A DNA stretch of 40,451 nt. It comes from Candidatus Eiseniibacteriota bacterium. Its GTDB lineage: Bacteria; Eisenbacteria; RBG-16-71-46. Below, one piece after another: positions 5,089-28,364 of the stretch. Numbering within the stretch: the first letter of the stretch is position 1; each line of letters opens with the position of its first letter. Under the pieces are notes generated by a model that saw nothing but the letters and a program-made list of their open reading frames with translations, made no database searches and had not been told where the DNA came from. Location of the stretch: positions 1 to 40,451 of the forward strand of contig JANYBS010000097.1 in assembly GCA_025360715.1 (NCBI GenBank). Direction: 5' to 3'. Both the position numbers and the translations under genes were made by a program.

Positions 5089-8000
5089 ATGTCCCAGACA
5101 CTCGAACCACAGAGCACCCGCACCCAGGCACCCGCGCCCACGCAGGCCGGTGTCCGAGTGCCGCGTCATTTCACCGTTGCGGGCAAGGATGCGCTCGCGG
5201 ACGTGAAGTGGGACAAGCGGCGCACGGTCATCGCCAATCCCGACGGCTCGGTCGTCTTCCAGATGGATGACGTCGAGGTGCCGTCCACGTGGTCGCAGCT
5301 CGCGACCGACATCGTCGTGAGCAAGTACTTCCGCAAGGCCGGCCTTCCCGGCACGCCCGGTCACGAGACCAGCGTGCGCCAGGTCGTCCGCCGCCTCGCG
5401 CACACGGCCCGTGTGACCGGCGAGGAGCAGGGCGGCTACTTCGCCACGAGCGAGGACGCCGAGGCCTTCGAGGCCGAACTCACCTACATGCTTGTGCACC
5501 AGATCGGCGCCTTCAACTCGCCGGTGTGGTTCAACTGCGGCCTGTTCCATGAGTACGGCATCACGGGCTCGGGCGGCAGCTTCTTCACCGACCGCGCCGA
5601 CGACACAGTCAAGATGACGACCGACTCGTACTCGCATCCTCAGGTGTCGGCCTGCTTCATCCAGTCGGTCAACGACGACCTCATGTCGATCTTCGAGCTC
5701 GTCAAGAACGAAGCCCGCGTCTTCAAGTACGGCTCGGGCACGGGCACGAACTTCTCCAAGCTGCGCGGCCGCATGGAGAAGCTCTCGGGCGGCGGCACGT
5801 CGTCGGGCCTCATGTCGTTCCTTGAGGTGCTCGATCGCGGCGCCGGCGCCACCAAGTCGGGCGGTACCACGCGGCGCGCGGCCAAGATGGTCGTGCTCGA
5901 CATGGACCACCCCGAGATCACCGACTTCGTGCGCTGGAAGATGCGCGAAGAGAAGAAAGTCGCGGCCCTCATCGCGGCCGGCTATCCGTCGGACTTCAAC
6001 GGCGAAGCCTATGCCACAGTCAGCGGCCAGAACTCGAATAACTCCATTCGCGTTCCCGATCGGTTCATGAACGCGGTCGAGACCGGCGGCGAGTGGTCGA
6101 CGATCTTCCGCACGACCGGCGAGGTCTACCAGACGCACCCGGCGCGCAAGCTCTGGCGCGAAGTCTCCGAAGCCGCGTGGGCGTGCGCCGACCCAGGTAT
6201 CCAGTACGACGACACGATCCAGAAGTGGCACACGTGCAAGGGCACCGATCGCATCCATGCGACGAACCCGTGCAGCGAGTTCGTGTTTCTCGACGACACC
6301 GCGTGCAACCTGGCGAGCGTGAACCTGATGAAGTTCCGCTCGAACGACGGCTCGTTCGACGTCGAAGGCTACCGTCACGCCAACCGCGTGTTCTTCCTGG
6401 CGCAGGAGATGCTGGTCAGCTTCGCGTCGTACCCCACCGAACGCATCGCCCGTCGCTCCGAGGACTTCCGTCCGCTCGGCCTGGGCTACGCCAATCTGGG
6501 CACGCTGCTCATGGTCGAGGGCCTGCCCTACGACAGTGACGCGGCGCGCGCTTATGCGGCGTCGATCACCGCGATGATGACGGGCGAGGCCTATGCGCTG
6601 TCGGCCGAGATGGCCGCGAGCAAGGGCACATTCAAGGGTCACACCGAGAACGCCGACGCCATGCTGAACGTGATGAAGCTGCACCGCGACGCGGCCCGCT
6701 CCATCGACCCGGCGCTCGCGCCGCGCGACATGCGGCAGGCGGCGATCGAGTGCTGGGACCGCGCGGTCTCGTACGGCGGCCTGCATGGGTACCGCAACTC
6801 GCAGGCCACCGTTCTGGCCCCCACCGGAACCATCGGCCTGCTCATGGACTGCGACACCACGGGCGTCGAGCCGGACTTCGCGCTGGTCAAGTTCAAGAAA
6901 CTCGCGGGCGGTGGCTACTTCAAGATCGTGAACCAGTCCGTGCCGCTCGCGCTCGAGCGTCTGGGCTACACGCATGACGAGACTGAACGCATCGTGCGCT
7001 ATGCGATCGGCCACGGCACGTTCGAAGGCTCGCCACATGTGAACGATTCGTACCTGCACAACAAGGGCTTCTCCGACGCCGAGATCCAGAAGGTCGAGGC
7101 TTCGCTACCCTTCGTGCTCGACATCCGTCAGGCGTTCGGCCGTGGCATGGTGAGCGAGGAACTGCTCACGCGCTTGGGCGTGACGATGCCGGAGCGTGAG
7201 CGCCCCGGCTTCAATGCCCTGCCGATCCTTGGCTTCACGGATGCGCAGATCGAAGAGGCCAACCTCTACATCTGCGGCACGCAGACGGTCGAAGGCGCGC
7301 CGGGCCTCAAGAGCGAGCACCTGCCCGTGTTCGATTGCGCCAACCGCTGCGGCAACCGCGGCACGCGCTACATCCAAGCCATGGGCCATGTGCGCATGAT
7401 GGCGGCGGTGCAGCCGTTCATCTCGGGCGCCATCAGCAAGACGGTCAACCTGCCGAACGATGCGACGGTCGATGACGTGCAGGACATCTACACGCAGTCG
7501 TGGAAGCTGGGACTCAAGGCCGTGGCGCTCTACCGCGACGGCTGCAAGATGAGCCAGCCGCTCAGCAGCACAACCAAGAAAACCGAGGAGAAGCCGGTCG
7601 TGGTCGAGGAGGGCGCCGGTCCGCCCAAGCTCAACCGCCGCCGCCTGCCGAAGCGCCGTCACGGCTTCACGCAGGAAGCGCGCATCGCCGGCCACAAGGT
7701 CTTCTTGCGCACCGGTGAGTACGAGGACGGGACGCTGGGCGAGATCTTCATCGACATGCACAAAGAAGGCGCAGCGTTCCGCAGCATGATGAACTGCTTC
7801 GCCATCGCAGTGTCGATGGGCCTACAGTACGGCGTGCCGCTCAATGACCTCGTCGACCAGTTCTGCTTCACGCGCTTCGAGCCGCACGGCCGTGTCGAAG
7901 GCCACGACAACATCAAGGTGGCGACCAGCGTGATCGACTACGTGTTCCGCGTACTCGGCTTCGAGTACCTGGACCGCACCGATCTGGCGCACGTCGTGCC

Positions 8001-8283
8001 GGAGTCCGGCCCGATCGGCGTCATCACGCAGAAGTCCTCGGAGCAGCCGCCCGTGGGCCGCGAACACCGCGAGGCCAAGCGTGCGCAGAGCGGCGTGCTC
8101 ACGCTCGATCCGGCGCGTTCGCGCGTGATGGAGAATGAAGAAGTGGTCAACAACGTCCAGCAGAGCTACAACAAACGCATGATCGGCGATGCGCCCGCGT
8201 GCGACAGCTGCGGCCACATCACCATCCGCAACGGCACCTGCTACAAGTGCGTGAACTGCGGCAGCTCGATGGGCTGCTCGTAG
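5089..8283 (+). CDS. nrdJ: Adenosylcobalamin-dependent (class II) ribonucleoside-diphosphate reductase
   Basis: Reduces ribonucleotides to deoxyribonucleotides with a thiyl radical generated from coenzyme B12, independently of oxygen. The active-site loop is NPCSEF: Asn393, Cys395 (radical) and Glu397 match Asn320, Cys322 and Glu324 of the Thermotoga maritima enzyme. The redox pair is Cys189 (VSACF) and Cys406 (DTACNLAS). PTGTIG and the glycine-rich barrel segments are intact. A TSCPD-type domain covers about 855-965 and a cysteine-rich tail (CDSCG, CYKCVNCGSSMGCS) ends the protein, serving thioredoxin-linked re-reduction. The 1064 residues are usual for this long subtype; no intein is seen. 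AGGAGG lies 7 bases before the ATG. It stands alone between a structured leader and a strong terminator. No class I or III reductase is in view, so the cell may depend on B12 for DNA precursors, which the window alone cannot show. Confidence 0.97.
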   Translation: MSQTLEPQSTRTQAPAPTQAGVRVPRHFTVAGKDALADVKWDKRRTVIANPDGSVVFQMDDVEVPSTWSQLATDIVVSKYFRKAGLPGTPGHETSVRQVVRRLAHTARVTGEEQGGYFATSEDAEAFEAELTYMLVHQIGAFNSPVWFNCGLFHEYGITGSGGSFFTDRADDTVKMTTDSYSHPQVSACFIQSVNDDLMSIFELVKNEARVFKYGSGTGTNFSKLRGRMEKLSGGGTSSGLMSFLEVLDRGAGATKSGGTTRRAAKMVVLDMDHPEITDFVRWKMREEKKVAALIAAGYPSDFNGEAYATVSGQNSNNSIRVPDRFMNAVETGGEWSTIFRTTGEVYQTHPARKLWREVSEAAWACADPGIQYDDTIQKWHTCKGTDRIHATNPCSEFVFLDDTACNLASVNLMKFRSNDGSFDVEGYRHANRVFFLAQEMLVSFASYPTERIARRSEDFRPLGLGYANLGTLLMVEGLPYDSDAARAYAASITAMMTGEAYALSAEMAASKGTFKGHTENADAMLNVMKLHRDAARSIDPALAPRDMRQAAIECWDRAVSYGGLHGYRNSQATVLAPTGTIGLLMDCDTTGVEPDFALVKFKKLAGGGYFKIVNQSVPLALERLGYTHDETERIVRYAIGHGTFEGSPHVNDSYLHNKGFSDAEIQKVEASLPFVLDIRQAFGRGMVSEELLTRLGVTMPERERPGFNALPILGFTDAQIEEANLYICGTQTVEGAPGLKSEHLPVFDCANRCGNRGTRYIQAMGHVRMMAAVQPFISGAISKTVNLPNDATVDDVQDIYTQSWKLGLKAVALYRDGCKMSQPLSSTTKKTEEKPVVVEEGAGPPKLNRRRLPKRRHGFTQEARIAGHKVFLRTGEYEDGTLGEIFIDMHKEGAAFRSMMNCFAIAVSMGLQYGVPLNDLVDQFCFTRFEPHGRVEGHDNIKVATSVIDYVFRVLGFEYLDRTDLAHVVPESGPIGVITQKSSEQPPVGREHREAKRAQSGVLTLDPARSRVMENEEVVNNVQQSYNKRMIGDAPACDSCGHITIRNGTCYKCVNCGSSMGCS

Positions 8284-10238: not shown

Positions 10239-11348
10239 ATGACTCGTGCCTGGGCATCCCCACTGCGGCTCCAGCCGCTGCAATTGCTGCTCGTATTCGT
10301 GGCGCTCGCGCCGCTGGGCGTGATGCTCCACTGGAGCGGCACGGCCATCTTCGCGTGCAGCGCGCTGGCCATCGTGCCGCTGGCCGGGCTCATGGGCGAA
10401 GCGACCGAAGCACTGGGCTCGCGATTGGGCGCCGGTGCGAGTGGGCTGCTCAACGCCACGTTCGGCAATGCCGCCGAGCTCATCCTGGCGCTCGTCGCAC
10501 TGCATGCCGGGCACTTCGAGGTGGTCAAGGCCTCGCTCACCGGCTCGATCATCGGCAACGCGCTTCTGGTGCTGGGCGTTTCCATGATCGCGGGCGGCGC
10601 GAAGCGCGAACGCCAGACGTTCGACCGCGCGGCCGCAGCGGCCTCGTCCACGCTACTCACGCTCGCCGCGATCGGCCTGGTTGTGCCTGCCGTGTTCCAC
10701 TTCGTGAGCGAACTCGAGCGCGCCGAGGGCACGCTCTCGCCCGTGCGCCAGGCGGTGAGCGAACATGGCCTGAGCGTGCTCATCGCCATCGTGCTGTTCA
10801 TCGCCTACCTGCTGAGCCTGCTGTTCACGCTGCGCACGCACAAGCACCTGTACACGGGCGGCAGCGAGGCGTCCGCGCACGGCCCGGTCGACACGCGCCG
10901 CGCGCTGCTGACGCTTCTGGTTGCCACGGGGCTCATCGCGTGGATGAGCGAGTTGCTCGTGGGCGCGGTCGAGGCCGCCACCCATGCGCTCGGGCTCACC
11001 GAGGTCTTCGTGGGTGTGATCGTGGTCGCCATCGTGGGCAACGCGGCCGAGCACTCCACCGCGGTGATCATGGCCATTCGCGACAAGATGGACCTGGCGC
11101 TTAATATCGCCATCGGCTCGAGCATCCAGATCGCACTCTTCGTGGCGCCCGTGCTGGTATTCGCCTCGCACTGGATCGCGCCGCGCCCCATGGACCTGCG
11201 GTTCTCGCCGTTCGAGGTGCTGGCCGTGCTGGCGGCCGTAGGCGTGGTGAACCTCGTATCGCAGGATGGCGAGTCGAACTGGCTTGAAGGTGCGCTGCTG
11301 ATCGCGGTCTACCTCGTGCTGGCGGTGGCGTTCTTCCTCCTGCCCTAG
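10239..11348 (+). CDS. Ca2+/H+ antiporter of the CaCA superfamily (CAX/VCX1 type)
   Basis: An inner-membrane exchanger that exports Ca2+ (possibly other divalent cations) in return for protons. It has about eleven hydrophobic segments. The two family-defining alpha repeats are plain: [13 protein letters not shown] near residues 76-88 and [13 protein letters not shown] near 268-280, each with the essential glutamate. A loop with histidines and charged residues ([19 protein letters not shown]) separates the halves. Length 369 is standard. The start is ATG at 10239; no SD is seen, and a weak CAGAGT lies 7 bases upstream, so the message may be leaderless. Divergent from the methylase; the next gene has its own promoter. 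Confidence 0.93.
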
Positions 11349-11397: not shown

Positions 11398-11424
11398 ATG
11401 GCACCCGCTGTCTCACCTCAGTAA
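11398..11424 (+). CDS. Candidate leaderless 8-codon upstream ORF (MAPAVSPQ)
   Basis: ATG at 11398 opens eight codons ending in TAA at 11422-11424. The stop overlaps the AAGGAG ribosome site (11423-11428) of the downstream dioxygenase gene, so a ribosome terminating here would sit on or next to that site. If the TAGACT at 11386 is the -10, the ORF would be translated from the first base of the mRNA. It contains no cysteine codon, so a simple cysteine-attenuation leader is not supported; two prolines could slow ribosomes. Existence as a translated peptide is inference from position only. Confidence 0.35.
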   Translation: MAPAVSPQ

Positions 11425-11433
11425 GGAGCTCGT

Positions 11434-12006
11434 ATGGCCGTCACGCAGGATTCCCGTCTTCGCGAACTCATCGCGCGCATCGATGGCGCCATGACGCCGC
11501 CCGATGATGCCGGCCGATGTCGCGCCGTGAAGGCCGTGCTCGAGGACGTCATGAGCAAGGGCGTCGACTTCCTCGACCCCTCGTTCCTGGTGCCCAACCC
11601 CGAGCGCTACGCGCGGCGCCTCGTGCACGCGGACCCCGCGCGCCACTACTGGCTCATCGCCATGGTCTGGGGCCCCGGGCAGGGCACGCCGCTGCACGAT
11701 CACGCGGGCATCTGGTGCGTGGAATGCGTCTACCAGGGCCGCATCAAGGTCACGTCGTTCTCGCCGCGCGGCGGCGATCCGGAACGCGACATCGTGCAGT
11801 TTCATCAAGAGACCGTGATCCACGCAGGCGTTGGTGAAGCCGGCGCGCTGATCCCGCCCTTCGAGTACCACGTGCTCGAGAACGCGCTCGAGACCCCGGC
11901 GGTCACGCTGCATGTCTACGGCGGCGAGATGGACCACTGCCACATCTTCGAGCCGGTCGACGGCGGCTACCTGCGCAAGTACCGCCAGCTCTCGTACACG
12001 GCGTAA
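11434..12006 (+). CDS. Cysteine dioxygenase (Arg-type, type I)
   Basis: Oxidises L-cysteine to cysteine sulfinate with non-haem Fe(II) and O2. The cupin iron ligands are His88, His90 (TPLHDH) and His146 (FEYHVLEN). Tyr59 and Arg61 (YARRL) correspond to human Tyr58 and Arg60, the latter gripping the cysteine carboxylate, which argues against a 3-mercaptopropionate (Gln-type) enzyme. Cys95 (HAGIWCVE) and Tyr162 (VTLHVY) fall at the places of human Cys93 and Tyr157, the residues that form a thioether cofactor; many bacterial homologues have Gly in place of the Cys. Length is 190 residues. AAGGAG is 5 bases before the ATG. Preceded by a short upstream ORF and convergent with the HD-GYP gene. Confidence 0.92.
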   Translation: MAVTQDSRLRELIARIDGAMTPPDDAGRCRAVKAVLEDVMSKGVDFLDPSFLVPNPERYARRLVHADPARHYWLIAMVWGPGQGTPLHDHAGIWCVECVYQGRIKVTSFSPRGGDPERDIVQFHQETVIHAGVGEAGALIPPFEYHVLENALETPAVTLHVYGGEMDHCHIFEPVDGGYLRKYRQLSYTA

Positions 12007-12029
12007 GCACCGCTGCGCGAGGCGGCCGT

Positions 12030-12073
12030 CTCAGGCAGCTTCGCGTTGCTCATCACGCTGCTTCGCGTTGCTC
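12030..12073 (-). repeat. 22-base tandem duplication across the HD-GYP stop codon
   Basis: Two adjacent 22-base units (12052-12073 and 12030-12051) share 14 identical leading bases on the minus strand and both spell EQREAA followed by TGA, in different frames because 22 is not a multiple of three. The gene now stops in the upstream unit at 12053, leaving the second as a silent copy of the old or new C-terminus. Confidence 0.75.
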
Positions 12074-13444
12074 GCCGTCCTCGAGCCCGCCGCATTCCAG
12101 CGCACCGATCAGGCCATCAAGGCACACGCCGCACAGGCCGATGCCGCGGTCGCGCTCCATGATCGCGAGCGTGCGCTCGGGCGAGAGCGCGGGCCGGTAG
12201 GGCCGCCGCGTCGAAAGCGCATCGTACACGTCGGCCACGGCGAGCACGCGCGCGAGCGCCGGGATCTGCTCGCCGTGCAGCCCGCGGCAGTAGCCGCTGC
12301 CATCCAGGCGCTCGTGATGCGCCGCGCTCGCGAACGCGAGCCATTCGAAGCCCTGCACGTGTTCCAAAATGCGCTCGGTGTAGTACGAATGCATGCGCAT
12401 GACCTCCCACTCCGACGGCGTGAGCGCGCCGGGCTTGTCGAGGATCATGTTCGGCACTGTGAGCTTGCCCAGATCATGCAACAGCGCGGCGCGGCGGACC
12501 TCGTTCACATCCGGCTCGCTCCAACCCAGCTCGATCGCGGTGCTCACGGCAAGCTGCGTCATGCGCTGTGAATGCGCGCCGGTGAAGGGCGACTTGGCGT
12601 CGACGACCTCGGCGAACACCTGCGCGATGCGGTCGATCGCACGCGGCCCGGCCAGCAGCGCGGCACCGCCGGGCTCGGCCTCGGTCACCAGGCGCGTGAG
12701 CTCGCGCGTCTCGAGCGCGCACCACGCCGATAGCGGGCGCTCGAGTCCCTCGCAAGCAGCGACCACGAGCGGATCGAACCAACGCCCGGCGCGCTCGCGC
12801 ACCACTTGCAGGCCCTGCACCGGGCCTCCGCGCATCGCGAACACCTCGAGTGTCTGCGCCAACGTAAGGATGCGCGCGACGATGGGGATCTCCTCGCCGC
12901 GCAAGCCGCGCGGCTCGCCGCGGCCATCCCAGTGCTCGTCCAGGTCGCGCACCGCCACGGCCGCGCCCTCGCCCAATCCGAGCTGCCGCACGATCTCGGC
13001 GCCCCGTTCGCAGCGCACCTGCACGAGCTTGGTCGCGACCTTGCTGCCGCGGCGGGCGAGGCCCGCCACACGCCGCGCGCGTTCGATCAGCGACGCGCCC
13101 GGCGCCGTGTGCGACATGGCATAGGCCGCGGCGCGAAAGTAGTTCGACCAGTCCACGCGCATGCGCGCGCCCTTGGCCAGCCGATCATCGCCGCCAAAGA
13201 GGGCGAAGACCTGGCTCGCGTTGCTCGAGCAGCCCACGTCCTTGAGCAGCGCCGCGTAGTACAAGTCGCGCTGCAGTTGCAGCGGCAGGCCCACGCGGCC
13301 GCCCAGCTCCATGGCGATCAGGCACGAGCGCAGCGCGTGTCCCATCGGCTGACCTTCGGTGAGGTCGAGCGCGAAGGACAGGGCAGAGAAGACATCCGAC
13401 AGTCGGACGCTCTCGGGGGCGGGCTTACGGGAACGCAATGACAC
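12053..13444 (-). CDS. Tandem HD-domain protein with C-terminal HD-GYP-like module
   Basis: Likely a signalling phosphohydrolase, possibly for cyclic di-GMP or a related dinucleotide. The C-terminal module has the HD-GYP series: TGAHSQRM, ALLHDLGKL (His323-Asp324), HSYYTERIL, AAHHERLDGSGYCRGL and ARVLAVADVYDAL. The name-giving GYP reads GYC (381-383). The N-terminal half is a decayed copy: GHALRS keeps one histidine (His36), but the HD pair is KD (LLKDVGC, Lys68-Asp69) and the GYP site reads GEP (EHWDGRGEPRGL), so it is probably non-catalytic. No receiver domain or membrane segment is seen. I chose GTG 13444 because GATACT lies exactly 6 bases upstream (leaderless pattern); in-frame ATG codons at 13513 and 13615 would add residues of unlikely composition. 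Confidence 0.85.
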   Translation of the reverse strand: MSLRSRKPAPESVRLSDVFSALSFALDLTEGQPMGHALRSCLIAMELGGRVGLPLQLQRDLYYAALLKDVGCSSNASQVFALFGGDDRLAKGARMRVDWSNYFRAAAYAMSHTAPGASLIERARRVAGLARRGSKVATKLVQVRCERGAEIVRQLGLGEGAAVAVRDLDEHWDGRGEPRGLRGEEIPIVARILTLAQTLEVFAMRGGPVQGLQVVRERAGRWFDPLVVAACEGLERPLSAWCALETRELTRLVTEAEPGGAALLAGPRAIDRIAQVFAEVVDAKSPFTGAHSQRMTQLAVSTAIELGWSEPDVNEVRRAALLHDLGKLTVPNMILDKPGALTPSEWEVMRMHSYYTERILEHVQGFEWLAFASAAHHERLDGSGYCRGLHGEQIPALARVLAVADVYDALSTRRPYRPALSPERTLAIMERDRGIGLCGVCLDGLIGALECGGLEDGEQREAA

Positions 13445-13450
13445 ACCGAA

Positions 13451-13456
13451 AGTATC
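13451..13456 (-). promoter_or_regulatory. Candidate -10 element GATACT before the HD-GYP gene
   Basis: On the minus strand CCGATACTTTCGGTG runs into the GTG start at 13444. Nearly the same 15 bases, CCGATACTTTCAGTG, occur on the minus strand upstream of the small membrane-protein gene (GATACT at about 32651-32656), which supports a shared promoter element. Confidence 0.45.
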
Positions 13457-13575
13457 GGTCGCGGGCGCGCAAAGGTTGAGGTCCCGCCTGTGTTTTCCGG
13501 CATTTAGCGACATGGCACCCCGGCAGGGCCTCGGAACCGCCTCGGAACCGCTGGCGGCGCCGCGCGGGCGCCCGG

Positions 13576-13581
13576 TAGACT
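13576..13581 (+). promoter_or_regulatory. Candidate -10 element TAGACT for the secreted nuclease gene
   Basis: GGTAGACTT in otherwise GC-rich sequence, 60 bases before the ATG at 13642. Just upstream, CCTCGGAACCG is repeated twice in tandem (about 13529-13551). Confidence 0.4.
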
Positions 13582-13641
13582 TGAACGGACCCTTTCGGGC
13601 TTCGCGTTCGCGCACCGGCCCAGCAGCCTGGCATCCTTCGC

Positions 13642-15672
13642 ATGGAGTCTCTCGTGGCCCACGTGTTCCTCCGGCCTCACCGCGCGCTCGCGCTGGCCGC
13701 GCTCTGCACCGCCGCGCTCACCAGCTTCGCCGCCCCGGCGCATGCGCTGCGAGTCGCGACGTGGAACCTGATGCGGTTCCAGTCCAACAATGTCGTCACG
13801 CCCGTCGCGTCACGCACGCCGGCGATCCGCACCGTGATCTCGGCCATGCAGCCCGACATCGTGCTCGTGGAGGAGGTCAACGACTCCGGCGCGCGTGATT
13901 CGCTGCTCAACAACGTGTTCAACGTGCTCGAGCCCGGGCAGTGGGCGGTGCAATGGACCTCACTCGCCACCAGCGGCGAGGGCGGCGGCATCTTCTACAA
14001 GCCCGCCAAGGTGGCGATCAGCAACTTCGGCACGATCACGACGGGCGGTCCGCGGCCGATCATCCAGGCGCTGTGCAAGCCGGTCGGCTACAACAACAAG
14101 GCCGGCTGGTTCCGCATCTACACGATGCACCTCAAGGCCGGCAATCCCAGCTTCACGGCGGCGGACTCCGCCACTCGCCGGCTGGAGTGCTCAAGCATCC
14201 GCACCACGCTCAACAATGTGATCACGACTAACGTGGGCACGAACTTCATCCTGGGCGGCGATACGAACTTCTATGGCGACTGGGAGGGCGGCTACCAGCG
14301 CCTGACCGAATCGCAAGCCAGCAACAATGGCCGCTGCACCGACATGCTCGTCATGCCGGGCACATGGAACAGCAACTCCGCGTATGCCTTCAACGACACG
14401 CAGTGCCCGCAGCTCTCGCCGTCCACCAGCGACTTCTCGGGCGGCGGCATGGACGACCGCTTCGACATGATCCTGAGCTCGGCGTCGATGCAGGATGGCA
14501 ATGGCCTCGACATGCGCACCGGCAGCCTGCCGGGCGGCTATGGCGCGTTCGGCAATGACGGCCAGCACTTCAACACCGACATCAACGGCGGCGGCTTCAA
14601 CGCCGCCGTGGGCTACACCGTCGCGACCGCGATGCACGACGCCGCGGACCACATCCCGGTCGTCTCGAACCTGCAGTTGCCCGCCAAGATCGCGGCCAGC
14701 TCGCAGATCGACTTCGGCCGCATGATCGTGGGCGCGAACGTCACCTCGCCGCTCAACATCACGAATGTGGCCACGGCGCCGGCCGACCTGCTGCGTTACA
14801 CGCTGGCCGCGCCCGCGGGCTTCACCGCACCCGCCGGCAGCTTTTCCACACCCACAGGCGGCGGCGGCAACACGCACGACATCGGCGTGGTCACTTCGGC
14901 GGCCGGAGCCCTGAGCGGCACGCTGGGTGTGGCCACGAACGATGTCGACAGCACGCTCAAGACCGTCAAGCTGTCGGCGGTCGTGCTCGATCACGCGGCC
15001 GCCTCGCTCGACTCCGTGAGCAAGGTCACGACCGGCTCGTTCGACTTCGGCGTGCATCCGGCCGCGGGCTTCGCCGACCTCCCGGTGCGCGTGCACAACG
15101 CGGGGTACAACGCGCTGCGCTCGAGACTGCAGCTGAACACCGCGTGGCTGCTGGGCGGCGACGGTCACTTCAAGGTCCGCGATGCCTTCACGCCCGTGCT
15201 GCTCGCGGGCACGGGACTCACGCTCGACGTGTACTTCGACCCCGCATTCGCCACGCTCGATTCCACCTACACGGGCACGCTGCAGGTCACGGGCGCTGAC
15301 GAATCGCTTCCCGGCGGCGCCGCCGCGGACACCCTCCGCGTGCAGCTGCAGGCGCGCGTGACCAGCGCCAGCACCGCGGTCGGCCCGAACACGGCAACGC
15401 TGCGTTTCCTGCCGCCGCGGCCGAACCCGTTCACGCACTCGACCGAGCTGGCGTTCGATCTGGCACATGAGGCGCCGGTATCGCTGGCCATCTATGACCT
15501 GAGCGGCCGCCGCGTGGCCCTGCTCGCAGACGGCCCACTGGGTGAAGGCCACCATGTGGTGCGTTGGAACACCCAGGATGAGAGCGGCAAGACCGTTCCG
15601 GCGGGACTCTACTTCGTGCGCTTCCAGACGCCGGGGCTCACGCGCGTCGCGAGGCTCGCCCTGCTGCCGTAA
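13642..15672 (+). CDS. Secreted endonuclease/exonuclease/phosphatase-fold protein with Ig-like domains and FlgD-like C-terminus
   Basis: A signal peptide (about 1-35, ending APAHA) leads into an endonuclease/exonuclease/phosphatase (EEP) domain of about 310 residues. The metal and catalytic residues of the fold can be placed: Asn42 (ATWNL), Glu78 (VLVEEVN), Asp207-Asn209 (GGDTNF) and Asp336-His337 (AADHIPVV, replacing the usual SDH). Two beta-rich domains of the choice-of-anchor-D kind follow (starting near IDFGRMIVG and FDFGVHPA). The last 85 residues are FlgD-like: PRPNPFTHS, IYDLSGRRVALL, VPAGLYFVRF. Substrate could be DNA, RNA or a phospho-compound. No SD precedes ATG 13642; a GTG at 13654 has GGAG 6 bases upstream and is an equally good start that keeps the signal peptide. 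Convergent, 9 bases apart, with the zinc-ribbon gene. Confidence 0.88.
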   Translation: MESLVAHVFLRPHRALALAALCTAALTSFAAPAHALRVATWNLMRFQSNNVVTPVASRTPAIRTVISAMQPDIVLVEEVNDSGARDSLLNNVFNVLEPGQWAVQWTSLATSGEGGGIFYKPAKVAISNFGTITTGGPRPIIQALCKPVGYNNKAGWFRIYTMHLKAGNPSFTAADSATRRLECSSIRTTLNNVITTNVGTNFILGGDTNFYGDWEGGYQRLTESQASNNGRCTDMLVMPGTWNSNSAYAFNDTQCPQLSPSTSDFSGGGMDDRFDMILSSASMQDGNGLDMRTGSLPGGYGAFGNDGQHFNTDINGGGFNAAVGYTVATAMHDAADHIPVVSNLQLPAKIAASSQIDFGRMIVGANVTSPLNITNVATAPADLLRYTLAAPAGFTAPAGSFSTPTGGGGNTHDIGVVTSAAGALSGTLGVATNDVDSTLKTVKLSAVVLDHAAASLDSVSKVTTGSFDFGVHPAAGFADLPVRVHNAGYNALRSRLQLNTAWLLGGDGHFKVRDAFTPVLLAGTGLTLDVYFDPAFATLDSTYTGTLQVTGADESLPGGAAADTLRVQLQARVTSASTAVGPNTATLRFLPPRPNPFTHSTELAFDLAHEAPVSLAIYDLSGRRVALLADGPLGEGHHVVRWNTQDESGKTVPAGLYFVRFQTPGLTRVARLALLP

Positions 15673-22004: not shown

Positions 22005-23288
22005 ATGCGACTTCGCTCTTTTCTGCCATTCGTGCCATTGCTGTTGCTCATGCTTTTCGGCTGCTCGCCTGCCGCGCGCGATCCGCGCTGGGCGGACGTG
22101 AGCGAACACACGCCCGCCGCACTGCGCGATGTCGATGCGCACGATCCCAGCCTGGCCGCGAACGCGCAGGGGCGCGTCGCGCTCACGTGGGTCACGAGCG
22201 ACACCGCGGGCTCCGACGTCTGGCTCGCGGTCTCGCGCGACAGCGGCGCGCACTTCGCGCCGCCCGTGCGCGTGAACGCCACGCATGGCGAAGTGGCCTC
22301 GTACGCCGAGAGCCGCCCAGTGGTGGCGTTCGGCGCGGGCGAGCGGGTACTCGTGGCGTGGGCCGCGCGGCGCACGCAAACCGCCGGCGGCACGGCACGC
22401 GACGCCGACGACATCGTGCTGCGCATGAGCGATGACAGCGGCGCGCACTTCGAACCACCGGTCGCGCTCAACAGCGACGCGCAGGACTCGCTCTCGACCT
22501 ATCATGGCTTCCTCACGATCGCCACGAACAACGCCGGCGAGGCCGCTGTGGCGTGGATCGATGGCCGCAGCACCGTGCTCGCGCCAGGCGAAGACGAACC
22601 CGCGCGCAGCGAGGTGCGGCTCGCAGTGAGCCGCGACGGCGGCGGCACCTGGGCGCGCGACACGCTCGTGGCGCGCGAGGTGTGCTCGTGCTGCCGGCTC
22701 GCGCTGCACTTGGGAAGCGACGGCCACGTGGCGCTCGCTTATCGCGGCGCCAAGGATGACATGCGCGATCCGCGGCTGGCGCAATCGATCGATGACGGCC
22801 TCTCGTTCGCGAACGACACGCTGGTGAGCGCCGACCACTGGCGGCTCAACGGCTGTCCGTCGATCGGTCCGGCGCTCGCGGCCACGAGCGAAGGCGGGCT
22901 CTACGCGTGGTACACGGGTTCCGACAGCACAGCCGACGGCGCGCCGCCCGGCGTTTACGTGAAGACGTGGCACGTCTCCGGCCGCACGGGGCTGCGTCAC
23001 GCGATGGCCGACAGCCTGCGCAGCGCGAACCGGCCCATGCTCGCCGCGATGGGCGATGGCGCCATGCTGGGCGTGCTCGCGGTGCCGCGCGAGGACTCCA
23101 CGCGCCATGTGCTGGCGGTCCGAGCGCTCGATCTCTCGGCGCGGCCAGGCCCGTGGCTGTTCCTGGGCGCCGGCGTGCGCACCGCTGTGCTCGCGTCCGG
23201 CGGGCCGCGCCATGTCTGGGCGGCGTGGATCGAGAAGCTGGCCATGGGCCCGCGCGTGCGCCTGGTACGCATCACCCCGTTGCTATGA
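22005..23288 (+). CDS. Beta-propeller lipoprotein with Asp-box (BNR/sialidase-like) repeats
   Basis: An exported lipoprotein: [20 protein letters not shown] gives a lipobox with Cys20. The rest is a propeller marked by Asp-box-like turns at regular spacing: [24 protein letters not shown] and SIDDGLSF, with strands such as [14 protein letters not shown] and VALAYRGA between them. An unusual CSCC cluster ([14 protein letters not shown]) sits in the middle. Sialidase catalytic residues cannot be assigned, so it should be called a sialidase-like fold, not an enzyme. 427 residues. The mRNA is probably leaderless (TAGACT 6 bases upstream, no SD). The MoxR gene starts 155 bases downstream. Confidence 0.82.
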
Positions 23289-23397
23289 CAGCGTCGCCCT
23301 GGCAACGTCGCCCTGACAAGCCGGGAACATCGCGCCGCGCCCGTCGGCCGCACCGCCGCGGCGGGCTGAGCCGGCGAGCCCGAAGACTCGATAAACC

Positions 23398-23427
23398 TTC
23401 ACGAGCCCGCGCCCAAGGGTGTAACCT
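23398..23427 (+). promoter_or_regulatory. Candidate promoter TTCACG-N18-TAACCT for the MoxR operon
   Basis: TTCACG at 23398-23403 and TAACCT at 23422-23427, 16 bases before ATG 23444. The preceding 23289-23397 is Arg/Pro-coding-like GC-rich sequence with a short direct repeat (CGTCGCCCTG at about 23292 and 23306), and shows nothing else. Confidence 0.35.
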
Positions 23428-23443
23428 TCGCGCCCTCAATCGA

Positions 23444-24511
23444 ATGCCGCGTCATGGCCCGGGCTCGCGCTCGCGCCCGCCCGCGGTCCACCGGCCGCCC
23501 ACTCCCGAGGTCCGATTGTCCGGCGCCCCTTCCGATCTGCAGGCCGTGCAACAGCTGAACCAGGCGCGCGAACGCATCAACACCGAACTGCGCAAGGCGA
23601 TCGTCGGTCAGGACGAAGTCATCGACCACCTGCTCACGGCGCTCTTCTCGGGCGGCCACGTGCTGCTCGTGGGCGTGCCGGGCCTGGCAAAGACGCTCCT
23701 CATCTCAAGTCTCGCGAAGGTTCTGGACCTGGAATTCAACCGCATCCAGTTCACGCCCGACCTCATGCCGAGCGACATCACCGGCACCGACATCCTCGAA
23801 GAGGACGCCACGACCGGCCGGCGCGCGATGCGATTCATCCGCGGCCCCATCTTCGCGAACATCGTGCTGGCGGACGAGATCAACCGCACACCGCCCAAGA
23901 CGCAGGCGGCGCTGCTGCAGGCCATGCAGGAGAAGGAAGTCACCGCCGGCGGCCAGACGATGGCGCTGCCGAAGCCGTTCTTCGTGCTGGCGACGCAGAA
24001 CCCCATCGAGCTCGAAGGCACCTATCCGCTGCCTGAAGCGCAGCTCGACCGGTTCATGTTCAACGTGCAGGTGGACTATCCCAAGCAGGACGAAGAAGAG
24101 AGAATCGTCGCTTCCACCACGTCGGCCTACACGCCGGCGATCGAGCGCGTACTCAGCGGCGCCGACATCCTGGCGCTGCAGCAGCTCGTGCGCCGCGTGC
24201 CGGTGACCGATCACGTCGTGCGCTATGCCGTGCGCTTGGCGCGCGCCACGCGCGGCCGTGAGGACGCGCCGGCGTTCGTGAAGCAGTGGGTCAGCTGGGG
24301 CGCCGGTCCGCGCGCCTCGCAGTTCCTGGTGCTGGGCGCCAAGACGCGCGCCGTGCTGCGCGGGCGTTTCGCGCCGGGCATCGAGGATGTGCAAGCGGTA
24401 GCGTTGAGTGTGCTGCGCCATCGCGTCGTGACCAACTTCACGGCCGAGGCCGAAGGCATCCGCCCCGACCGCATCATCGCCGACCTGCTGCAGCAGATCC
24501 CGACGGACTAG
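23444..24511 (+). CDS. MoxR-family AAA+ ATPase
   Basis: A chaperone-like ATPase that typically works with von Willebrand A (VWA) domain partners such as the DUF58 and BatA-type products encoded 2-4 kb downstream. Walker A is GVPGLAKT (77-84), Walker B VLADEINR (Asp144-Glu145), sensor 1 [23 protein letters not shown], and a C-terminal lid follows ([21 protein letters not shown]). The core starts at about residue 33 ([19 protein letters not shown]). The start is uncertain: ATG 23444 gives 355 residues with a basic, Pro-rich N-terminus, while TTG 23516, preceded by GAGG at 5 bases, gives 331 residues, nearer the family norm. First gene of a six-gene run on the plus strand. Confidence 0.92.
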
Positions 24512-24542
24512 TACTCCGCACCATCACCGGAGGCCTTGCCGC

Positions 24543-25910
24543 ATGGCTGGTACGAACGTCGAACTCAAGCGCCAGATCGGGCTCTACGCCGCCACCGCCA
24601 TCACGGTCGGCAACATCATCGGCTCGGGCATCTTCCGCTCGCCGCACTCCGTGGCGCAGGAGCTGCACGGATTCACGCCGGTGCTCATGGCGTGGATCGT
24701 CGGCGGCATCCTGAGCATCTGCGGCTCGCTCGTTTTGACCGAGCTCGCGGTTCGTCATCCGAAAACCGGCGGCCTCTACGTGTTCATCCGCGAGGGCTTC
24801 GGCGATCAGTGGGCATTCGTCTTCAGCTGGGCCAACCTGTGGGTGATCAAGCCCACGGTGATCGCGTCCATCGTGAGTGTCTTCGCGCTCTACTTCTGCC
24901 AGGTCATGGGCTGGGGCCACGGCGCCGAGTTCATGGTCGGCTGCGCGGGCATCGTGATCCTCACGCTGGTGAACTACCTGGGCGTCAAAGAAGGCGCCGC
25001 CACGCAGTCGCTCTTCACCACCGCCAAGTTGGTCGGCATCCTGGGGCTGTGCTTCTTCGCTTTCACGGTTCCCTCCACACACCCCGCCGGGCTCATGGAG
25101 CATGCCGCGAAGGCCGGCAACGCGGGCCATCCGCTCATGCTCGCGTTCGCGCTGAGCATGATCACGATCCTCTTTGCATACGACGGCTGGACGGACTCCA
25201 CGTACGTGGCCGGTGAGGTCGTGAACCCGCAGCGCACCATGCCGATCGCCATCCTGGGCGGCACGTGGCTGGTGGTCGCGGTCTACGTGCTCACCAACTT
25301 CGCCTACTACCACGTGCTCAAGCCCGACGAGATCGCGAGCTACGAGGCCGTAGGCTCGGAAGCGATCCACCGCCTGCTCGGCGACTGGGGCGCTCGCGCG
25401 CTGGCCGTGCTCGTGGCGGTCTCCACGTTCGGCACCACGAACGGCGCCATCCTCACCGGTCCGCGCGTCACGCAGGCGGCCGGCGCCGACGGCCTGCTGT
25501 GGAAGCCGCTCGCCGCGCTCGATCCCAAGCGCGGCACGCCTGCGCTCGCGCTGCTCGTGCAGGCGGTGCTCTCGTGCCTGTGGCTCAAGGCCGCCGGCGG
25601 CTTCGAGGACATCTCGGGCTGGTTCGTGACCACCTCGTGGCTGTTCTATGGCGTGACTACCGCCACCATCTTCACGCAGCGCGCGCGCGAATCGCGCGGA
25701 GAGATGCAGCCCGCCAGTTATCGCACGCCGCTTTATCCGCTCACGCCGATCATCTTCCTGGTCGTGACCGCGGTCATCATCTACAGCGACTTCACCAACA
25801 GCGGCGCGATCCCCGGCACGCCGATCCCGCGCGCCATGGCCGGCGTGATCATCGCGGCCACGGGCTTCCCCGTGTACTGGATCTGGTGGAGGGGCAAGCG
25901 CGCCCGCTAG
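24543..25910 (+). CDS. APC-superfamily amino-acid permease (LAT-like)
   Basis: An inner-membrane amino-acid transporter or exchanger with 12 predicted helices in 455 residues. Helix 1 carries the unwound substrate-binding motif of the family (VGNIIGSGIF), and helix 6 the matching FAYDGWTDSTYVAGEV. The PHSVAQ loop and the VVNPQRTMPIAI stretch after helix 6 are those of the LAT/SteT-like branch. Substrate cannot be told. GGAGG is 9 bases before the ATG. It starts 31 bases after the MoxR stop and is followed after 3 bases by the methyltransferase gene, so it is inside the MoxR-DUF58 operon, an uncommon place for a permease. Confidence 0.92.
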   Translation: MAGTNVELKRQIGLYAATAITVGNIIGSGIFRSPHSVAQELHGFTPVLMAWIVGGILSICGSLVLTELAVRHPKTGGLYVFIREGFGDQWAFVFSWANLWVIKPTVIASIVSVFALYFCQVMGWGHGAEFMVGCAGIVILTLVNYLGVKEGAATQSLFTTAKLVGILGLCFFAFTVPSTHPAGLMEHAAKAGNAGHPLMLAFALSMITILFAYDGWTDSTYVAGEVVNPQRTMPIAILGGTWLVVAVYVLTNFAYYHVLKPDEIASYEAVGSEAIHRLLGDWGARALAVLVAVSTFGTTNGAILTGPRVTQAAGADGLLWKPLAALDPKRGTPALALLVQAVLSCLWLKAAGGFEDISGWFVTTSWLFYGVTTATIFTQRARESRGEMQPASYRTPLYPLTPIIFLVVTAVIIYSDFTNSGAIPGTPIPRAMAGVIIAATGFPVYWIWWRGKRAR

Positions 25911-25913
25911 GCC

Positions 25914-26702
25914 ATGACGTCCTACTACCTCTCGCCCGACCTCTATGAGCTGGTCTACGCCGACATGGTGGCGGATATCGCGCCACATGTGGCGGCAGCG
26001 AAGGCCGCCGGCGGGCCGGTGCTCGAGGTCTGCTGTGGCACGGGGCGGCTCCTGATCCCGACGCTCGAAGCGGGCATCGATTGCGACGGGCTCGATGTGG
26101 AGCCGACGATGCTCGGCGCGCTACGTGCCAAGCTGGCCGCGCGCGGGCTGCACGCCGCGCTGCATTCGGCCGACATGCGCAGTTTCAAGCTGGAGCGCCG
26201 CTACGCGCTGATCGCGATCGGCTTCAACTCGTTCCTGCACAATCTTTCCCAGGACGACCAGATCGCCACACTGCGCCGCTGCCGCGAACATCTGGCGCCC
26301 GGCGGCTGCCTGCAGCTGATGGTGTTCCATCCGAGCGCCGAGAAGCTCCTCGAATGGAGCGGCGCCGAGAGCTTCGTCAAAGAGCTGCCGCTACCGGACG
26401 GCGGGCGGCTGCGCGTATACGACCTCGCACACGACGACCGCGTGGAGCAGATCCGCCGTATGACACGCCGGCTGGAGTTCCTCGATGCCGCGGGCGCCAA
26501 GACGCGCGAGGAATCCCTCACGTTCGACCTGCGCTACATCTTCAAGCCCGAGATGGAACTGTTGCTGCGCGTGGCGGGTTTCCGGCAGTGGAAGGTGGAG
26601 TCGCTTTTCGCAGCCTATCAGGACGCCAGCGCGTATCCCGCAGGACAAGGTCCGCGCGAAGGCGACCACCTGCGCTGGTCCGCATGGGGCGCAAGCGCAT
26701 GA
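25914..26702 (+). CDS. Class I SAM-dependent methyltransferase
   Basis: A Rossmann-fold methyltransferase of 262 residues with motif I VLEVCCGTGR (36-45), the acidic motif II GLDVEPTML and motif III region SADMRSF, followed by YALIAIGFNSFLHN. The C-terminal half has the long strand segments typical of small-molecule methyltransferases (RLRVYDLAHDD; LEFLDAAGAKTREESLTFDLRYIF). Substrate unknown. It starts 3 bases after the permease stop and ends 10 bases before DUF58, so all three share a transcript. It may modify a metabolite moved by the permease or act independently of the MoxR/VWA proteins; the sequence does not decide. Confidence 0.85.
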   Translation: MTSYYLSPDLYELVYADMVADIAPHVAAAKAAGGPVLEVCCGTGRLLIPTLEAGIDCDGLDVEPTMLGALRAKLAARGLHAALHSADMRSFKLERRYALIAIGFNSFLHNLSQDDQIATLRRCREHLAPGGCLQLMVFHPSAEKLLEWSGAESFVKELPLPDGGRLRVYDLAHDDRVEQIRRMTRRLEFLDAAGAKTREESLTFDLRYIFKPEMELLLRVAGFRQWKVESLFAAYQDASAYPAGQGPREGDHLRWSAWGASA

Positions 26703-26712
26703 GAAGGCCCCG

Positions 26713-27735
26713 ATGAGCGCGTCCGATCCCAAGGCCGGCAGCGGTGCGATGTCGGATCCACTCTCGCGCAGCGGCGCGGCGTCGGATCCTCTCTCGCGCA
26801 GCGGCGCTCAGGCTGACCGCGGCATCGCCCGCGGTGGCGCGGGCGACCGCCGTTCGCTCGATCCGGGCGTGGTCGCGCGGCTCGGGCATCTGGACGTGCG
26901 CGCGCGCATGGTGGTCGAAGGCTTCATCGCCGGCATGCACCGCAGTCCGTTCCATGGCTTCAGCGTGGAGTTCGCCGAGCACCGGCCCTACATGCCGGGC
27001 GATCCGCTTAAGAACCTGGACTGGAAGGTGCTGGGCAAGAGCGATCGTTACCTGGTGAAGCAGTACACCGAAGAGACGAACCTGCGCAGTCATCTGCTGC
27101 TCGACCTGTCGGGCTCGATGGGCTTCCAGTCGCCGCGCGCGTCGCTCTCCAAACTCGAGTACGCGCGCTCGCTCGCCGCCGCGCTTGCGTATCTCATGCT
27201 GGGCCAGCAGGACGCCGTGGGCGCCATGCTCTTCGCCGAGACACCGCTCACGTACATCCCGGCGCGCGCGGTGCGCTCGCACCTTGACGTGCTGCTCAAG
27301 GTCCTCGCCGGCGGCACACCGCAGGGCCGCACGCAACTGGGGCCGGTGCTGCACGAAGTCGCCGAACGCATCAAGCGCCGCGGGCTCGTGATCCTGCTCA
27401 GCGATCTTATGGACAAACCCGAAGAAGTGCTCTCGGGACTGCAACACTTCCGCCACCGGCATCACGAGGTGGTGGTCTTTCACATCCTCGATCCCGACGA
27501 AGTGGATTTTCCGTATAGCGACACAAGTACGTTCGTGGACCTCGAGACTGGCGAGCGCATCACCACCGAGCCGTGGGAGATCGCGGCGCGCTACCGCGAG
27601 CGCTTCACGGCGTGGCAGGACCGCTACCGGCGCTCGTGCCGCGAGCAGCGCATCGACTACGTGCCGCTCGATACGCGCATGCCGTTCGATCGCGCGTTGC
27701 TCGCCTATCTCGAGAAGCGGGCGAAGCTCCTGTGA
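26713..27735 (+). CDS. DUF58 / VWA-like protein, MoxR partner
   Basis: A 340-residue member of the DUF58 family, which pairs with MoxR ATPases. The family signature HRSPFHGFSVEFAEHRPYMPGD is followed by DWKVLGKSDRYLVKQYTEETN and a metal-ion-dependent adhesion site of the DxSxS kind (Asp131-Leu-Ser-Gly-Ser135). The fold ends with QRIDYVPLDTRMPFDRALLAYL. It has no membrane segment. Before the domain, the N-terminus has three 10-residue repeats (SDPKAGSGA, SDPLSRSGA, SDPLSRSGA). The start is ATG 26713 with AAGG 5 bases upstream. Its TGA stop shares one base with the next ATG. Confidence 0.92.
   Translation: MSASDPKAGSGAMSDPLSRSGAASDPLSRSGAQADRGIARGGAGDRRSLDPGVVARLGHLDVRARMVVEGFIAGMHRSPFHGFSVEFAEHRPYMPGDPLKNLDWKVLGKSDRYLVKQYTEETNLRSHLLLDLSGSMGFQSPRASLSKLEYARSLAAALAYLMLGQQDAVGAMLFAETPLTYIPARAVRSHLDVLLKVLAGGTPQGRTQLGPVLHEVAERIKRRGLVILLSDLMDKPEEVLSGLQHFRHRHHEVVVFHILDPDEVDFPYSDTSTFVDLETGERITTEPWEIAARYRERFTAWQDRYRRSCREQRIDYVPLDTRMPFDRALLAYLEKRAKLL
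26721..26810 (+). repeat. Three in-frame 30-base repeats in the DUF58 N-terminus
   Basis: Units at 26721-26750, 26751-26780 and 26781-26810. The last two differ at only a few bases and the first is diverged. Each encodes a 10-residue S-D-P-x-x-x-S-G-A-x block, adding a low-complexity tail before the DUF58 domain. Confidence 0.85.
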
Positions 27736-28364
27736 TGTTCCGCGTGGTGGCGATGGTCGTGTTCGCCCTGGGCGCGGTGATGCTGGTGCTATTCCTTGGC
27801 CTGCTGGGCGAGGCACCCGGCAGCGCGATCGAATCCAAGCACCTGCGCGAGATGAAAGAGCGCACGACGGCGCCCGCCCTGTACACCCCGTTCACCGCCG
27901 ACAGCTTCGCGGCATTACCGCATCAGCTCACATGGAACCGCTATGCGCATCTGGAGCAGCGCGGCGTGAGCATGGTGGGGTGGGTCCAGCGCACACTCGC
28001 CGCCGGAGATGGCGACATGCACCTGGAGCTCACGCCCGCGCCGCATGGCGAGAACGCACGCGATACGCTTTACGTGACCGCCGAGATCACGCCGTGGTGG
28101 CGGCATCGCTCCACCGCGTGGTCATACGAGAGCCTGCTGGCCGTGCTGCGCCCCAACGACGGCGGCACCACGCGCTGGAGTGGCGGCCCGCAGAAGGTGC
28201 GCGTGAGTGGCTGGCTGCTCTACGACTTCCAGTATGACCGCCCGAACAGCTCGTGGACCATGCTGCACGGCGCGCCGCGGCTCACGGGCTGGGAGATCCA
28301 TCCCGTCACGCGCATCGAGGCATGGGATGACGCCACCCAGGCGTGGCTCGAGGTGACGCCGTGA
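27735..28364 (+). CDS. Hypothetical single-pass membrane protein in the MoxR operon
   Basis: A 209-residue protein not recognised by family. An N-terminal hydrophobic segment (about 4-25, AMVVFALGAVMLVLFLGLLG) anchors a soluble domain rich in Trp and beta-strand-like sequence (TWNRYAHLEQRGVSMVGWVQ; ITPWWRHRSTAWSYESLL; RVSGWLLYDFQYD). The phrases 'VSGWLLYDFQYD', 'WEIHPVTRIE.WD' and 'W.EV' near the end suggest a compact binding domain. The ATG at 27735 shares one base with the DUF58 stop (TGATG) and the gene's TGA overlaps the next GTG, so it is translationally coupled on both sides and probably works at the membrane with the DUF58 and BatA-type proteins. Confidence 0.85.
   Translation: MFRVVAMVVFALGAVMLVLFLGLLGEAPGSAIESKHLREMKERTTAPALYTPFTADSFAALPHQLTWNRYAHLEQRGVSMVGWVQRTLAAGDGDMHLELTPAPHGENARDTLYVTAEITPWWRHRSTAWSYESLLAVLRPNDGGTTRWSGGPQKVRVSGWLLYDFQYDRPNSSWTMLHGAPRLTGWEIHPVTRIEAWDDATQAWLEVTP

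Follow-up and report, generated by a model that had tools for sequence, protein, structure and literature searches.

The window analysed here, a stretch of DNA of 40,451 nucleotides, carries at positions 11434-12006 of the forward strand an open reading frame that starts with ATG and encodes 190 amino acids. A likely ribosome-binding site, AAGGAG (11423-11428, forward strand), could be read directly from the sequence five bases before the start codon. The predicted protein matched the Pfam family CDO_I (PF05995) with 45.5 bits (cut-off 23, E 7.9e-12), while no NCBIfam family was found for it at E 0.001. Based on the reading frame, the Pfam match, an AF2 model and the fold match, the gene (cdo) was annotated as an Arg-type small-molecule thiol (cysteine) dioxygenase. 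It is the single CDO_I match in the source assembly (4.29 Mb, 253 contigs, 96% complete). Upstream lies a Na/Ca exchanger gene (10239-11348, forward strand) and downstream an HD-domain gene (12053-13615, reverse strand). The closest named relatives of the protein belong to Candidatus Eisenbacteria, and a plasmid search returned 54 records, all with identities below 60%. The other window genes that were scanned (5089-8283, 13642-15672, 22907-30424 and 32882-36400) are ordinary-looking and include a class II ribonucleotide reductase, an exo/endonuclease-like protein with a FlgD-like C-terminal domain, MoxR-like, DUF58 and BatA genes together with an amino-acid permease, and a transcription-repair coupling factor.

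Alignment with rat cysteine dioxygenase (CDO) located all of the expected active-site residues. Three histidines align with the three-His iron site, His88 and His90 in the His88-Asp89-His90 stretch (codons 11695-11703) and His146, the equivalent of His140 (11869-11871), and the model has the cupin fold. Tyr59 (11608-11610) corresponds to Tyr58 of the mammalian enzyme and Arg61 (11614-11616) to the carboxylate-binding Arg60, a position occupied by Gln in the three reference chains of 3-mercaptopropionate dioxygenase (MDO), where this residue marks the Gln type. Both Tyr59 and Arg61 are present in 43 out of 43 representatives of the protein's clade, the window protein included. Cys95 (11716-11718), the predicted thioether donor, takes the place of Cys93: HDHAGIWC95 aligns without gaps to rat HDHTDSHC93, the Cys following the second His ligand (His90, rat His88) by five residues, and in both proteins the conserved cupin-motif Gly (G102 in the window protein) stands seven residues beyond it. 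Chance or misalignment was therefore rejected for Cys95, there being no gap between His90 and Cys95 nor up to the G102 anchor. Tyr162, the predicted thioether acceptor, closes the motif Thr158-Leu-His160-Val-Tyr162 (11905-11919), which corresponds to the outer-sphere Ser153-His155-Tyr157 ('SHY') motif with Thr158 in place of Ser153; Thr is a known substitute for this Ser according to passages of PMC10966181. Cys169 (11938-11940) is the equivalent of Cys164. A preliminary description of this DNA had put Cys95 at the place of human Cys93, Tyr162 of VTLHVY at that of Tyr157 and Arg61 at that of Arg60, and the alignment bears out each of these assignments; with the characterised dioxygenases aligned, it is Cys95 and no other residue of the window protein that falls on the Cys93 position. 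The eukaryotic di-proline after the Tyr (Y-S-P-P) is replaced by Y162-G-G-E, and Trp94, fixed in 43/43 clade representatives, stands where the mammalian enzyme has His92.

The AF2 model, built from a 58-row alignment, reached a pLDDT of 95.4 and a pTM of 0.90. In this model one strand (95-101) begins with Cys95 and another (156-162) ends with Tyr162. In VIA-align 4wvz_A, 4qma and 4tlf_A shared the top score (for 4wvz_A, Z 24.4 and rmsd 1.6 A over 177 residues), and rat and human CDO followed with Z 21.6-22.5 and rmsd 2.0-2.2 over 170-173 residues. Foldseek ranked the chains of Azotobacter vinelandii MDO (6xb9) first and 4wvz eighth. The PDB title of the latter reads 'artificial crosslinked thiol dioxygenase G95C variant from Pseudomonas aeruginosa', which indicates that placing a Cys there is enough for a related bacterial protein, from the same branch, to become crosslinked. 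When the PDB was searched by sequence, using the window protein, its family profiles (A1, A2) and two further bacterial proteins of the Cys type, the only bacterial chains listed were MDO types, Bacillus subtilis CDO, ergothioneine dioxygenase and 8vni. Among the listed bacterial chains that were compared (8vni, a mercaptosuccinate dioxygenase, lies outside this comparison) none has a natural Cys at the position, and only the engineered 4wvz carries one. The statement of the preliminary description that most described bacterial enzymes have Gly there holds for the solved enzymes of P. aeruginosa, A. vinelandii, R. eutropha, B. subtilis (3eqe) and for ergothioneine dioxygenase, 8vni again being left aside.

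Compared with solved relatives, the window protein combines features of several types. With mammalian CDO1 (PDB 6u4s, 2ic1) it shares the three-His site, equivalents of Tyr58, Arg60, Cys93, His155, Tyr157 and Cys164, and the fold (Z about 22), but the identity is 27% over 143 columns, the two lie on opposite sides of the family tree, and the Ser153, Y-S-P-P and His92 of CDO1 are replaced as described above. By sequence and by fold, the nearest solved structures are P. aeruginosa MDO (PaMDO; 3uss, 4tlf), A. vinelandii MDO (6xb9) and R. eutropha 4qma. These differ in carrying Gln for Arg60 and Gly for the Cys, and their loop is one residue shorter (HDH-x3-G against HDH-x4-C in the window protein). 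The G95C variant of PaMDO (4wvz) has its Cys at the same cupin-motif position beside the same Tyr; it is however artificial and Gln-type, while the window enzyme is natural and Arg-type. B. subtilis CDO (YubC; 3eqe, 4qm8, 4qm9) is likewise an Arg-type bacterial CDO_I protein with the same core, but it has Gly at the Cys position (HDHGQSIG in 3eqe) and is distant (Z 18.3-18.8).

The cysteine is well conserved among relatives. In 59 genomes, the source genome included, a CDO_I match was present in 14 and a close relative of the window protein in 12 (again including its own), all 12 with the Cys. The more distant matches in these genomes (in G054, in G055 and a second gene of G016; E 3e-9 to 1e-6) also have it. 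Named loci were collected with search patterns that left Cys95 out, and in the best 80 of 148 the residue is Cys in 78, Val in one (L058) and Arg in one (L080, which is truncated and comes from a metagenome bin). Arg61 is present in 80/80 of the same loci and Tyr162 in 78/80, the remaining two not reaching it, which again argues against chance. Their hosts are Eisenbacteria, Armatimonadota, Planctomycetota, Acidobacteriota, Latescibacterota and proteobacteria (Stenotrophomonas, Xanthomonas, Wenzhouxiangella). Within the 43 clade representatives Cys95 is found in 42, with Val in L058, while Cys169 is kept in 37, Cys98 in 19 and Cys29 in 15. The gene itself is patchily distributed in the family of the source organism: none of the four genomes of its genus (G001-G004) has a CDO_I match, compared with 11 out of 15 other genomes of the family. 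Genome G016 carries two enzymes, one of the WCVE type and one of the HNHRGQECW type from the other deep branch (loci L011 and L016), with the Cys-Tyr pair in both.

A census of PF05995 matches was performed in seven samples, namely the phylum of Xanthomonas (299 genomes), a domain-wide sample (385), Planctomycetota (149), Acidobacteriota (149), the phylum of genome G054 (45), the phylum of genome G596 (inferred to be Actinomycetota; 198) and Armatimonadota (101). The centre genomes' own genes (G059, G060, G061, G062) and the window's phylum were excluded, as were the second genome copy G852, the fragment G754:C43 and the sub-cut-off match G1143:C1:8344029. For 198 readable matches the residue at position 93 is Cys in 91, Gly in 92 and another in 15. 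The Cys share amounts to 9/25 in the phylum of Xanthomonas, 8/14 domain-wide, 29/58 in Planctomycetota, 31/42 in Acidobacteriota, 7/7 in the phylum of G054, 5/49 in that of G596 and 2/3 in Armatimonadota. The window's clade occurs in Planctomycetota, Acidobacteriota, Armatimonadota and the phylum of Xanthomonas, and they were picked for that reason, which raises the Cys share and makes the overall figure a biased estimate for bacteria as a whole. The phyla of G054 and G596 entered the census because these genomes had a match, with Cys and Gly respectively. The domain-wide sample, the fairest but small, gave 8 Cys, 5 Gly and 1 Trp in 14 readable matches (L148, with two stops, was dropped). Among the 134 Arg-type matches, with Arg at position 60, there are 84 Cys, 40 Gly and 10 other residues. 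All 84 Arg-type Cys proteins have the Tyr, but since Gly-type proteins carry it almost as regularly, the Tyr says nothing about the bond when taken alone.

The 49 matches from the phylum of G596 (L257-L305) stand somewhat apart. Arg60 is missing in 48 of them (Tyr, Val, Trp, Phe, Gln and others replace it), and for L262, the one of them that was searched, the best solved matches are ergothioneine dioxygenase entries (8qf*). PF05995 thus seems to lump several substrates. The Gly-type matches from this phylum were rejected as CDO controls, with Arg60 in 1/49 and ergothioneine dioxygenase as the best match of L262. Four proteins of the same phylum (L277, L297, L298 and L303) are Gln-type and MDO-like with a natural Cys at the PaMDO Gly95 position (HDH-x3-C), which makes them counterparts, occurring in nature, of the crosslinked G95C variant; in L301 the Gln is replaced by Ser.

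The counts above bear on the expectation, expressed in the preliminary description, that the pair would be unusual in a bacterium. This expectation was only half right: the solved bacterial enzymes compared have Gly, yet Cys is frequent in the sampled CDO_I matches (91/198, on both sides of the family tree). Any surprise concerns the family and not a single copy, the pair being common in the bacterial matches sampled and on both main branches. Passages of PMC4019311 describe many bacterial CDOs as lacking the Cys, which is called prototypical for eukaryotic CDOs; the wording 'many of them' leaves room for some bacterial CDOs with it. No description of a natural bacterial Cys-type CDO was found in the portions of the open-licence literature searched. 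The Cys-Tyr pair is frequent among the bacterial relatives examined, though papers describe it mainly from animals.

The window enzyme belongs to a large bacterial clade with the cofactor pair; it is a well-conserved thiol dioxygenase of the Arg type, and its substrate is most likely cysteine. We consider it probable, with some reserve, that it is an Arg-type CDO_I cysteine dioxygenase that forms the predicted Cys95-Tyr162 thioether as mammalian CDO does. In such an enzyme Fe(II) would be held by His88, His90 and His146, and the carboxylate of L-cysteine would be bound by Arg61 and Tyr59. O2 would then be added to the thiolate, presumably giving cysteine sulfinate. An occasional uncoupled oxidation during turnover may join the sulfur of Cys95 to the ring of Tyr162, and the resulting protein-derived Cys-Tyr cofactor would, as in mammalian CDO, raise activity and coupling. 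The sulfinate would presumably end up as pyruvate and sulfite in the cell, and relatives may export or resist the sulfite via a neighbouring YeiH-type transporter. The preferred reading is supported by the matching active-site positions, the model and its fold matches, the crosslinked 4wvz, the gene neighbourhood of relatives and the conservation of Cys95 in 42/43 clade representatives while the other cysteines drift. Counted against it are Trp94 in place of His92, the Gly protein L131 within the clade, the 61 named loci that have none of the neighbour genes, the lack of a YeiH match in the window's genome and the absence of the enzyme from the four genomes of the same genus.

Formation of the thioether in the window enzyme is likely, as predicted from the pair. 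The cysteine could instead be a conserved but unmodified second-sphere thiol that tunes the iron site or the packing, with no thioether anywhere in the clade. We regard this as unlikely, though it deserves serious attention: bacterial forms are said to use an unmodified Tyr (a passage of PMC8050391), the bond is no crucial requirement for cysteine oxygenation in the cited part of a review (PMC4019311), and both the di-proline after the Tyr and the Ser of the SHY motif are missing, Thr replacing the latter in the window protein and in 35/43 clade representatives. In human CDO the di-proline after Tyr157 may orient the phenol, according to a passage of PMC8503633, whose authors also argue that the need for an amplifier does not appear in bacteria; the same paper gives 3.8 A from sulfur to ortho-carbon for uncrosslinked rat CDO (6U4V). 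On the other hand, PaMDO has no di-proline after its Tyr (YGAN, compared with YGGE in the window protein), yet its G95C form is crosslinked by PDB title, at the very place where the window protein has its Cys. The Cys position, Tyr and Arg moreover co-occur (84/84 Arg-type Cys proteins with Tyr, the Gly types being nearly as constant).

The history of the cysteine was followed on a maximum-likelihood tree of 71 rows, computed under LG+G4 rather than a mixture model and with the Cys column removed; its bootstrap stopped a little short of convergence. Rows were excluded if they were odd or long (nine), shorter than 125 residues or at least 50% identical to a kept row, or if the Arg position held none of R, Q, K and S. 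The family is split in two with support 100/100. On the side of P. aeruginosa MDO lies the window's clade, which at this cut comprises 12 rows (96/92), 11 of them with Cys and one, L131, with Gly. Rat CDO, the one eukaryotic row, is on the opposite side, where it joins Planctomycetota proteins, four with Cys and one with Gly, in a six-row set (91/91, not starred). L277 and L297 group with PaMDO (94/87). Cys is found on both sides of the tree, and its history requires 11 changes by parsimony, at least five of them forced by the starred branches. A quick tree of 152 rows placed 43 rows in the window's clade (42 Cys and one Val, SH-aLRT 96), but because it has many weak branches and some long rows, conclusions rest on the 71-row tree. 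This tree does not distinguish gain from loss of the Cys. Consequently, where the protein had been said to retain the pair, the presence of the pair stands, while retention was not established, as repeated gain would give the same picture.

Gene neighbourhoods of relatives also carry information on the substrate. In the family of the source organism, a PF03601 gene (YeiH family, putative sulfate export) adjoins cdo on the same strand in 10 out of 11 other CDO-bearing genomes; the exception, G016, has it on a different contig. The window's genome assembly has no PF03601 (YeiH) match. The 46-base gap ahead of the HD-domain gene (12007-12052) marks the place where the relative L018 has a YeiH-type gene (L018:666-1661, between cdo and the HD-domain gene). 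Across 20 family genomes YeiH was found in 11/12 with the enzyme versus 2/8 without it (Fisher p 0.004, uncorrected for kinship). In the best 80 of the 148 named loci YeiH is present in the flanks of 15, adjacent and on the same strand in 15/15 and downstream in 14; seven of these (L017-L021, L027, L028) appear to be already counted among the 10 above, and eight are new.

Five Armatimonadota loci (L022, L023, L030, L031 and L034) have cystathionine beta-synthase-like (CBS) and/or cystathionine gamma-synthase/lyase-like (CGL) genes near cdo. The gene order is CBS-CDO-CGL in L023, where the contig ends within CBS, CBS-CDO-YeiH in L031 and CDO-YeiH-CGL in L022; L030 has CDO-CGL with CBS 3 kb off, and in L034 CBS-CDO is followed by an opposite-strand ORF and then CGL. 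The three CBS-like neighbours tested scored 487-502 bits against TIGR01137 (cut-off 510), their C-terminal part being missing, and one out of two CGL-like neighbours tested exceeded the cut-off of NF005871. An aminotransferase-like gene lies ahead of CDO in L037 and L043, and L041 gave a weak, distant CGL match. In 61 of the best 80 of 148 named loci, including all 43 of L054-L096, the four neighbour genes (YeiH, CBS, CGL, aminotransferase) are all missing, some flanks being short, and queries with the four gave no match in the 40-kb window.

The neighbourhood of the relatives, with YeiH and, in Armatimonadota, transsulfuration-like enzymes, agrees with cysteine as the substrate; the window copy has neither. 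The simplest reading of these neighbourhoods is a route from homocysteine to cysteine, cysteine sulfinate and finally pyruvate plus sulfite, with export of the sulfite, and the Armatimonadota clusters could possibly represent a bacterial reverse-transsulfuration-to-sulfite route. YeiH is the main sulfite-resistance factor in Salmonella, as stated in a passage of PMC12880088. However, sulfite is also made from 3-mercaptopropionate (part of PMC6370202), so YeiH does not discriminate between the substrates.

The substrate is less sure than the assignment to the family, because the tree puts the enzyme on the side of the MDOs and its best solved matches are MDOs. It is nevertheless rather improbable that the enzyme oxidises some other small thiol acid, such as 3-mercaptopropionate or mercaptosuccinate, and not cysteine. 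Such a function would fit the position of the protein with PaMDO and away from rat CDO across the 100/100 split, as well as the MDOs among its best sequence and fold matches, but Arg61 stands where MDO has Gln, and the five Armatimonadota loci place the gene near genes of cysteine supply. A recent import of the gene or of its Cys by horizontal transfer from a eukaryotic CDO is extremely improbable and was rejected on the 71-row tree with its one eukaryotic row: the pair has been described from eukaryotes (passages of PMC8050391 and PMC4019311), but the 100/100 split separates the clade, which falls with MDO, from rat CDO and so makes a eukaryotic loan unlikely, the identity to rat CDO is 27% over 143 columns, and the closest relatives with names come from Eisenbacteria, Armatimonadota and Planctomycetota.

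Returning to the reading of the window enzyme as a cysteine dioxygenase with a thioether, a broader proposal can be made tentatively, and we are close to undecided on it: the Cys-Tyr thioether cofactor may be no specialty of animals or other eukaryotes. It would be widespread in bacteria, on both deep CDO_I branches including that of MDO, with a state that changed at least five times on supported branches and with natural Gln-type proteins that have the Cys as counterparts of the engineered crosslinked MDO. If the thioether forms in the window enzyme, the cofactor would be an old or repeatedly invented device, and sister pairs of bacterial Cys and Gly enzymes, such as L227 and L226, would offer a natural experiment on its role. 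The view that the cofactor serves only the cysteine load of the fed mammal would then be weakened, and bacterial cysteine catabolism, with transsulfuration, CDO and sulfite export, would be suggested as its setting.
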